Part shown: in pieces, positions 45,277-48,492 of the stretch
Layout of the letters: every line of letters starts with the position of its first letter
How positions within the stretch are numbered: the stretch's first letter is position 1
NCBI RefSeq assembly: GCF_003762835.1
Contig: NZ_RJWA01000006.1
Span: 1-64,000 of the forward strand
Source of the DNA: Micromonospora sp. HM5-17
GTDB lineage: Bacteria; Actinomycetota; Actinomycetes; Mycobacteriales; Micromonosporaceae
Length of the DNA: 64,000 bases
Reading direction: 5' to 3'
Position numbers and translations under genes: made by a program
The notes under the pieces: model-generated
Databases searched by the model: none
Told to the model about the DNA's origin: nothing
What the model saw: only the letters and a program-made list of their open reading frames with translations

Positions 45277-46272
45277 TCAGCCGAGGCCGACCAGCCGTCC
45301 CAACACCCGGTTCGTACGGTTCGCCCGCACCGCCGCCCGCTGCTGCGCCGCCGTCACCTCGATGTAGTGCTGACTCGTCGCCAGACTCGCATGCCCCAAC
45401 AGCCGCATGATCTCCGACGCGCTCGCCCCGTCCTCGGCCAGCCGCGTCGCGAACGTGTGCCGCAACGCGTGCAACTGCGCGCCCCGCGGCACCCGATCGG
45501 TGATCCCGGCCCGCCGGTAGCACGACCACACCAGATACTGCAGGCCGCCGCGACGCAGCGGAGCGCCGGATCGGTCCACCAGCAGCGGCGAGTCCGGCCC
45601 GACCGTCCGCGCCCCGAACCGGCGCCGCCGGCTCTCCAGGTACGCCTCGAGGACCGCGTCGAGTTCCGGCTCGATCGGGATCGTCCGGGCCCGACCTCCC
45701 TTGCCCGCCACGTCCACCCGGCGCTCGCCCGCCCGGCCCGCCAGCGAACCCACCCGCAACGCCAGGAGCTCGGACAGTCGCAGGCCGGCACAGAGCCCCA
45801 ACGCCAGTACCGCCAGGTCGCGCTCCGGCCACGGATCACGCTGGCGCCGGTCCACCCGGGACACCGCCTCCAGCAGTTCCTCCGGCGTCCGCTCGCCCCG
45901 CAGCGGCTTCGGCGGCGGCGTGGGCACGACCGGCTTGTCGACCGCGGACATCGGGTTGCCGGCCACGACGCCGTCCGCGACGAGGAAGGTGAAGAAGCTG
46001 TTCCAGGTGGACCAGGCCCGGTGGATGGAGGCCGGGGCGCGGCCGGCCGCGAACCGGGCGAAGGCGGACCGCAGCGTACGGGGGGTCAGGGCGCTGAGCG
46101 GCAGGTCGGCGAGGGGGAGGGGAGTGGCCGGATCCTCGGCGACCAGGCGTGCCACGGCCAGGAGGTCTCGCCGGTAGGCGGCCAGGGTGTGGGGGGAGGG
46201 TTTGCGGGTCGCCCGAGCGGTCAGGAACTCCTCGACGAGGGAGAGAAGCAGATGATCCGATTTGTCCTGCAT
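45277..46272 (-). CDS. Tyrosine recombinase (XerC/XerD-like)
   Basis: A 331-residue tyrosine site-specific recombinase. An N-terminal SAM-like core-binding domain (SPHTLAAYRRDLLAVARLVA ... SIHRAWSTWNSFFTFLVADG) is followed by the catalytic domain with the first Arg in CAGLRLSELLAL, HALRHTFATRLAEDG (His-x-x-Arg) and the final LGHASLATSQHYIEV with the nucleophile Tyr. It is slightly longer than XerC/XerD and lacks phage-integrase N-terminal arms. ATG 46272 is the start. A dif-like 28-bp site lies 364 bp upstream of it. Base composition changes within the gene: the plus strand is C-rich up to about 45.9 kb and G-rich after it. Confidence 0.92.
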   Translation of the reverse strand: MQDKSDHLLLSLVEEFLTARATRKPSPHTLAAYRRDLLAVARLVAEDPATPLPLADLPLSALTPRTLRSAFARFAAGRAPASIHRAWSTWNSFFTFLVADGVVAGNPMSAVDKPVVPTPPPKPLRGERTPEELLEAVSRVDRRQRDPWPERDLAVLALGLCAGLRLSELLALRVGSLAGRAGERRVDVAGKGGRARTIPIEPELDAVLEAYLESRRRRFGARTVGPDSPLLVDRSGAPLRRGGLQYLVWSCYRRAGITDRVPRGAQLHALRHTFATRLAEDGASASEIMRLLGHASLATSQHYIEVTAAQQRAAVRANRTNRVLGRLVGLG

Positions 46273-46877
46273 AACGAATATTATTCATGAATGGGACTCG
46301 CGTTCAATATCTGACCAACTTCCATATCCGCCGGGAGCCCGGCAGGCGTCGACCGCCAGCCCGGCCGGGCGGGCCCGAAACCCGCGATACGCCGCCCGCC
46401 CGGCCGGACGCCGGCACCGGGCCGCCGACCGGCGGAGAGGGGCGGATCGACCGCGCCAGGACGAATACCGACCGCGCCGACCGCGGCAGGTCGTACGGTC
46501 CGCGCCGTCCACGTCGGTCGGGGTACGCGGCGGTGCGGCCGGCGGACCGCGGGCGCGGCAGCGGGGACCGGAGCGTCGGATCCGGGTTGGTGAACAGGCC
46601 CCTTGAGGGCGGGACCGCCCACCGGACGACCGGCAACTTTACATAATGTCAATTATCGACTCGACGGAAGCCCGGCGGACGCCGGAGCGGACTCGTCGCG
46701 CGGGGTGTCCACCCGGGATGCCGAGGTCCGGTCATCCGGGAGTAACGGTGCAGCGAGACGCCACCAGCGCGCGGGCGGGTTCGGGCCCGCGGCGGTCCGG
46801 GCGCCGGCGTGGCGGAGAAGAACGATGGTCACCCGCGTGAAAGGCGCCGCGGCCGGGCCCGGTACGGCGGCGCCGGG
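46273..46877. other. 605-bp non-coding region between recombinase and SDR genes
   Basis: No credible gene on either strand; the open frames here are Arg/Pro-rich products of GC-rich sequence. It starts with an AT-rich stretch (46270-46330) that is likely the recombinase promoter, then GC-rich sequence, then a local AT-rich patch at 46634-46660 holding the dif-like site. Confidence 0.6.
46636..46663 (-). other. dif-like XerCD recombination site
   Basis: Read on the minus strand, an 11-bp arm CGAGTCGATAA, a 6-bp centre TTGACA and an 11-bp arm TTATGTAAAGT. The right arm differs from the E. coli XerD arm (TTATGTTAAAT) at only two positions, and the inner ATAA/TTAT ends and the 6-bp spacing are those of dif. 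The left arm is less conserved, as is usual for XerC arms. It is an AT-rich island in a non-coding gap next to a Xer-like recombinase gene. Confidence 0.6.
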
Positions 46878-47775: not shown

Positions 47776-48492
47776 ATGGCTGCCGCGCGTACCGATGAAC
47801 AGGGGTTGTCAACCGAGGAGTTGGAGCAGATCCGGGACGCGTTGGCGAACGGTCGCCGGCCGAAGGTGGTGTTCACCGAGGCGGCGGGACAGATCGCCGG
47901 TCAACTCGGCCAGGTGGTCGAGCTGACCGATCCGGCGGTGTCCGACGAGTGGGTGGTGGTCCGGTTTGGTCGGGACGAGCTGCCCTTCTCCCCCGCCGAT
48001 CTGGCGGTGGCGCCGAAGGGCGCGGCGGCACGGCGGGCGAAGGCGGAGCCGGAGCCCTCGGTGGAGCCTGTTCCGGAGCCGGAGTTCAAAGTGGTGCGGG
48101 AGCCGGTTCCGGCTCCGCGCGAGGAGGCGAGAGTGACCGCAGTGGAGACTACCCCGGCGAGCGCGGCCGAGGCGGGGCCCAAGCCGGCGAAGCGGGCGGC
48201 AAAGGCAGCCCGGCCGAAGGGGCCGGCGGGGTTGACGGTGACGTTGTCGTACGCGGACGGTGAGTGGACGCTGGCGGCGACGCAGGGGACGAAGGCGCTG
48301 GCGAAGCCGTACGTGATCAAGCCGGCGGAGGCGTTGAAGATGGTGGCGCTGGTCGACGTGCCGGGCGTGCAGGAGGCGGTGGAGCAGATCCTGGAGGCGG
48401 AGCGCCGGGAGGCCGAGCAGCAGGCGGAGCGGTTGCGCGCGGAGTTGGCGGAGGTCGAGGCGCGGCTGGCGGAGCTGCGCGACGCGGGCTGA
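47776..48492 (+). CDS. Conserved actinobacterial protein, DUF6319-like
   Basis: A 238-residue protein with an N-terminal conserved part (LSTEELEQIRDALANGRRPK ... DEWVVVRFGRDELPFSPADL), a Pro/Ala/Glu/Lys-rich flexible middle, and a C-terminal part (GLTVTLSYADGEWTLAATQG) ending in a helix rich in Glu/Arg (AERREAEQQAERLRAELAEV). It resembles what is annotated as DUF6319 in streptomycetes; I am not certain of the family number. No membrane segment. Function unknown. ATG 47776; a hairpin terminator follows at 48556. Confidence 0.7.
   Translation: MAAARTDEQGLSTEELEQIRDALANGRRPKVVFTEAAGQIAGQLGQVVELTDPAVSDEWVVVRFGRDELPFSPADLAVAPKGAAARRAKAEPEPSVEPVPEPEFKVVREPVPAPREEARVTAVETTPASAAEAGPKPAKRAAKAARPKGPAGLTVTLSYADGEWTLAATQGTKALAKPYVIKPAEALKMVALVDVPGVQEAVEQILEAERREAEQQAERLRAELAEVEARLAELRDAG

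Follow-up and report, generated by a model that had tools for sequence, protein, structure and literature searches.

A 28-bp sequence resembling a chromosomal dif site and a gene for a Xer-like tyrosine recombinase lie next to each other on contig NZ_RJWA01000006.1 of Micromonospora sp. HM5-17, in the stretch of 64,000 nt analysed here (the window), and the question raised by this locus is whether site and enzyme belong together. The preliminary description saw in them a possible self-contained unit in the manner of XerH or XerS; its reading of the sequence as two arms around a 6-bp centre was reproduced from the letters, and the noncoding gap of 605 bp (46273–46877) and the 364 bp between the site and the recombinase start are correct as given there. 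However, the site is not the lone AT-rich patch it was taken for, since another palindrome of dif-like form extends over the start of the recombinase gene (Table 1), and the genome encodes both XerC and XerD, which speaks against a unit made of dif and the adjacent enzyme. A self-contained unit does seem to exist, but with the palindrome as its site: judging from the sequence, a second, plasmid-type resolution module with a single recombinase (Cre/lox- or XerS-like) has probably been kept beside dif.

Table 1. Features of the window discussed in the text, with positions counted from its first letter
Feature	Position	Strand	Details
Third Xer-like tyrosine recombinase, 331 aa	45277..46272	minus	PF00589 84 bits, PF02899 26 bits
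Second Xer-type site (candidate), imperfect palindrome over the recombinase start	46262..46293	minus	identified from sequence
Candidate -10 hexamer	46280..46285	minus	AATAAT, in the left arm of the palindrome, 7 nt before the ATG (46272-46270); read from sequence
Chromosomal dif (almost certain)	46636..46663	minus	CGAGTCGATAA-TTGACA-TTATGTAAAGT (left arm, 6-bp centre, right arm)

The 28-bp site, which reads CGAGTCGATAATTGACATTATGTAAAGT as a whole on the minus strand, is almost certainly a chromosomal dif of the ordinary XerC/XerD type; it has the 11-bp arms, the 6-bp centre and the family consensus of this class, and XerC and XerD, which would be its users judging by sequence and position, are both encoded in the genome. 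The left arm is presumed to be the XerC arm and the right arm the XerD arm; the latter differs at two positions from what we take to be the XerD arm of E. coli. As the preliminary description had expected of a dif, the site is unique and conserved. A 181-bp query around it matches only itself in the draft genome of the strain (51 contigs), and the pattern TCGATAATNNACATTATGTMAA, with up to two mismatches allowed, has a single match in each of 108 family genomes out of the 150 scanned, while the reversed pattern used as a control has no match in any of them. In all of the 80 Micromonosporaceae loci that were retrieved via the recombinase, the best match is on the strand of that gene and upstream of it. 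Over 24 aligned positions it has at most five mismatches in 77 loci and six to eight in the other three (L013, L026 and L030, from Actinoplanes/Paractinoplanes); 11 of these positions are invariant in all 80 loci, and 19 are identical in at least 76. The dif-like site of genome G007 is divergent and was missed by the pattern, and that of G040 is also more divergent.

A location at the replication terminus had been foreseen as well and is borne out by the relatives, from which it is read; the strain itself is represented by the 51-contig draft. Among 34 relatives whose dif-bearing genomes are complete or nearly so, with no more than two contigs (and with sizes that are rounded to 0.1 Mb in about half of the cases), 33 have dif opposite dnaA, at a distance of 0.470–0.498 of the chromosome; for the remaining genome, G032, the value is 0.384. 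Five genomes of the family labelled f19 have dif at about 0.46–0.48 of the chromosome. The cumulative GC skew of G122, a noisy curve from twenty 20-kb samples, peaks in the 3.95-Mb sample, next to dif at 3.61 Mb; FtsK-guide-like octamers are very few in these samples. The gene order around dif is conserved across the family anyway (cyd genes, an acyltransferase), so that finding recombinase and dif close together within the family carries little weight on its own; the neighbourhood comparison used a codon-composition filter, which may miss genes.

Some further observations concern this region. A gene at 47776–48492 on the plus strand encodes a 238-aa protein with weak likeness to DUF6319 (E 0.016, below the cut-off), and 22 of the 41 regions compared have a homolog of it no more than 10 kb from dif, including regions of genera without the recombinase. 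At five loci (L165, L166, L167, L168 and L182) the orientation of dif to the recombinase is opposite to that in the main group; at L166 the flanking cyd genes stay on their recombinase side, as if only dif had been flipped. Neither dif nor recombinase was found in 40 of the 150 family genomes. Four genomes of the window's family (G011, G013, G016 and G049) have no dif at up to two mismatches, and their best Xer matches, of 114–141 bits, are below canonical strength; these lineages possibly have linear chromosomes.

Whether the recombinase is an ortholog of XerC, of XerD or of neither had been left to phylogeny, and the answer is neither: the enzyme is placed as a third, well-separated Xer type, because in a tree of 56 hand-picked rows it falls into a clade of its own (37 rows at 100/100), apart from XerC (7 rows) and XerD (12 rows). 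The rows omitted were split pieces of XerC (L272–L274, L279, L288, L289), a partial XerD (L286) and L270; the deeper branching within the 37-row clade is resolved in part, with a program warning that long branches come together. The scores against the equivalog cut-offs agree with this placement (165 against 335 bits for XerC, 142 against 330 for XerD, 73 against 267 for XerS), the tree weighing more, as the XerC cut-off was passed by no genome in a separate comparison of canonical Xer proteins either. An assignment as XerS with difSL was rejected on the XerS score and on the 6-bp instead of 11-bp centre of the palindrome. The genome of the strain has eight PF00589 matches in total, among them one XerC and one XerD, both placed by the tree. 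R165, K191, H268, R271, H294 and Y303, presumed to be catalytic on the basis of the family's known motifs, are invariant in 18 aligned orthologs (L035, whose reference has a stop codon, and L053 were left out of this alignment), and the identity is 72–83% over the loci of 80 species; together, these values point to selection on the enzyme. Its AlphaFold model is mediocre (mean pLDDT 70.7, pTM 0.44). A phage origin was considered and rejected, no relative being found in phage records at E 1e-15; two PHROG integrase profiles match with 124–144 bits, as expected for the superfamily.

The site that overlaps the start of this gene has, in relatives, the core TGCATAA-N6-TTATGCA, and the longer consensus of the Micromonosporaceae loci is TCATGCATAA-TATCCC-TTATGCATGA. 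In the window the core (46268–46287) reads TGAATAA-TATTCG-TTATGCA, with one base changed, and the exact core is absent from the draft genome of the strain. The palindrome lies over the recombinase start in 80/80 loci, and each of its seven inner arm positions is symmetric in 75–80 of them; the 6-bp spacer is self-complementary in none of 98 cases. Thus two equal arms enclose an asymmetric spacer of Xer size, as in single-recombinase modules, imperfectly so in the window and in genus g13. At the varying arm positions (−8 and −9), symmetry was counted 43 times in one family, against a mean of 36 and a maximum of 47 in shuffles, and 14 times in the other, against a mean of 10.1 and a maximum of 14; covariation of the arms within families was dropped as evidence, being not clearly above the shuffles, and the argument from symmetry therefore rests on invariance and on the changes between subfamilies.

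The ATG of the recombinase falls in the right arm of the palindrome, and the -10-like hexamer in the left arm, so close upstream of the ATG, makes it likely that the transcript is leaderless and that the palindrome overlaps its promoter. This is a natural position for a repressor in the Micromonosporaceae, and the palindrome might be an autoregulatory operator and nothing else, with the recombinase acting elsewhere or nowhere; we regard this as unlikely, in view of the 6-bp spacing and the ATAA/TTAT ends, which match an Xer core site, and of the places where the palindrome is found in other lineages. Of the 26 recombinase-positive f19 genomes, 19 have dif in the neighbourhood of the recombinase, and all 19 have the exact palindrome; in each of the 15 measured, its distance from dif is 293–958 bp, the recombinase being about 2–8.5 kb away. 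In genus g5, 241–289 bp separate the palindrome from dif and the recombinase lies at distances of up to 9.7 kb; in g13 an imperfect version is 0.8–1.8 kb from dif. Overall, the distance in these three groups is 0.7–9 kb to the recombinase start and 0.24–1.8 kb to dif, which is hard to reconcile with an operator. The palindrome follows dif, and not only the start of the recombinase gene, because f19 and g5 keep it near dif with the recombinase kilobases away. Two contigs (G516 C70 and G299 C4) have an exact palindrome several kb from the recombinase and only a degenerate copy at its start, again unlike a simple operator; these genomes perhaps have separate operator and recombination sites. In G066 the assembly breaks at the palindrome, the same site being present on both ends (contigs C12 and C141, loci L295 and L296).

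The recombinase is linked to this site across genomes. A single copy of the exact core is present in each of 63 family genomes out of 150, and its reversed control is absent from all 150. In 61 of the 63 it is located 272–2331 bp (median 449) from dif, always on the same side; the exceptions are G009, where the distance is 5.4 kb, and G004, where the exact match is 1.7 Mb from dif. All but one of the 63 belong to the 76 recombinase-positive family genomes, and in the remaining one (G116) the contig stops just past the palindrome; in the 14 recombinase-positive genomes that have no exact core, G062 among them, imperfect versions appear when the thresholds are relaxed. An independent, class-wide set comprises 394 genomes, of which 33 have the recombinase (26 of f19, three each of f1 and f2, and one of f3); the exact palindrome is present in 28 of these 33 as opposed to one of the 361 others (G186), where it again lies on a short contig. 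Recombinase-positive means E 1e-50 in the family set and 1e-62 in the class-wide set, and the counts depend on these thresholds; Fisher tests of co-occurrence treat related genomes as independent.

It is improbable that the recombinase has dif as its own site, given the separate XerC and XerD, the clade of the recombinase and the palindrome tracking it. The view of dif and recombinase as one unit is not supported by 34 of the 150 family genomes, which have dif without the recombinase, and the enzyme is dispensable for this reason; what accompanies the recombinase is the palindrome. The third recombinase could also act at dif itself, either as a helper of XerC and XerD or as an alternative partner to them, as may be suspected from the dif-like site present in 76/76 recombinase-positive family genomes (74 at up to two mismatches), from the 40 genomes that lack both, and from dif and recombinase adjoining each other. 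This role is very improbable, however, with a dif that looks unchanged in the 34 genomes without the enzyme, seven f19 genomes that keep the enzyme without a detectable dif, and the palindrome tracking the recombinase class-wide.

These seven genomes, among the 26 recombinase-positive ones of f19, have no dif at up to three mismatches. Each has one canonical Xer match (226–272 bits), whereas the dif-bearing genomes compared have two, and the lone canonical Xer of G299 and of G470 groups with XerD in the tree; the exact palindrome is present in six of the seven. Their lack of dif may be only apparent, because the same pattern missed the divergent dif-like site of G007, and they may have linear chromosomes without need of dimer resolution. 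It is possible, and we put it forward tentatively, that two dimer-resolution systems work independently at one terminus in Micromonosporaceae and in a second actinobacterial family, and that the plasmid-derived one took over in a lineage where dif and one canonical Xer were lost.

A connection with plasmids is apparent from the tree, whose 37-row clade includes rows from seven named plasmids and one from a plasmid-like contig; the plasmid rows form a clade at 99/96 inside it. Relatives of the recombinase occur in 58 of 72,556 plasmid records, each with less than 60% identity (38–42% among the 40 matches listed), from Mycobacterium, Rhodococcus, Mycolicibacterium, Prescottella and Dietzia; we know of no functional test of these plasmid versions. 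Upstream of the gene, a clear ATAA-N6-TTAT palindrome is present in four of the seven named plasmids and an imperfect one, with an inner mismatch, in L238; none was seen in L239 and L243. All three plasmid-like contigs, from G152, G361 and G492, have such a palindrome. The arms on plasmids change jointly, as in TGGATAA/TTATCCA, TAGATAA/TTATCTA and TACATAA/TTATGTA. The contig from G492 (C2, locus L294), plasmid-like and 216,348 bases in length, carries two palindromes, separated by about 10 kb, of which one adjoins the recombinase.

Since the nearest non-chromosomal relatives are plasmid-borne, and insertion of integrative elements (IMEX) at dif is known (PMC5357621, in the part available), the locus might be the remnant of a plasmid or of a dif-integrating element, with gene and site kept for another reason or by inertia. 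This is quite unlikely: the genome has a single dif and not the pair that would flank an IMEX, no phage relative is found at E 1e-15, and the invariant catalytic residues and the identity among the 80 species' loci argue for selection. It is possible, though, that an event of this kind gave rise to the module and that resolution is its present-day role, and such an origin is part of the preferred reading of a second resolution module kept beside dif.

The observed gene and sites, their co-occurrence and positions, and the phylogeny suggest how this module might work. Two site-specific recombination systems would be neighbours at the replication terminus. The third recombinase would recognise its own near-palindromic site, with equal arms ending in ATAA/TTAT and an asymmetric 6-bp spacer, one and the same protein binding both arms; on a dimeric chromosome it would synapse the two palindromes and recombine them within the 6-bp spacer, in the way of Cre/lox or XerS/difSL. 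In Micromonosporaceae, its binding at the start codon would in addition repress its own gene. The module probably descends from a plasmid module for multimer resolution or shares an ancestor with one. Binding, cleavage, dimer resolution and autoregulation are inferred.

To our knowledge, descriptions of bacteria usually assign them either XerCD/dif or a single recombinase in its place. The findings suggest that a second resolution system is maintained at the terminus in some actinobacteria; a conserved XerCD/dif with a second module at its side would, if true, show how one system replaces another, and the arrangement would also show why some lineages need two resolution systems. Small pairs of recombinase and site whose arms differ between chromosomes and plasmids are possible tools in actinomycetes, which are rich in natural products. 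In the open papers searched, no description of the second module was found, a prior description elsewhere being possible, and these papers likewise yielded no dif/Xer literature for Micromonospora, Salinispora or the terminus.

Among known systems, Cre/loxP is a plasmid-type recombinase with its own site, in which one protein acts on symmetric arms around an asymmetric spacer. The module of the window is alike in plan and has direct homologs on plasmids of Mycobacterium and Rhodococcus, but is chromosomal, adjoins dif and is widely conserved. The dif itself is closest to the actinobacterial XerCD/dif described for Frankia alni: with the F. alni dif, as printed in the accessible text of PMC3025954, it shares 22 of 28 letters (by letter count), the 6-bp centre and the single copy, and the position at the terminus (in relatives) and the presence of XerC and XerD are also alike; nothing essential differs, and the unusual feature of the window is the neighbouring recombinase. 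In XerS/difSL and XerH/difH, as far as the available parts of PMC5357621 and PMC2731167 describe them, one recombinase is likewise linked to its own terminus site, but the genome studied here additionally carries the canonical XerC, XerD and dif, and its palindrome consists of nearly equal arms around a 6-bp centre, in contrast to the 11-bp centre given for difSL (PMC5357621). The XerL/dif system of Legionellales (PMC9765430, as far as accessible) again comprises a single divergent recombinase and has a plasmid-borne member beside its own site; there, XerL is described as the host's chromosome resolution system, with a dif-like site, whereas the recombinase of the window accompanies XerCD/dif.
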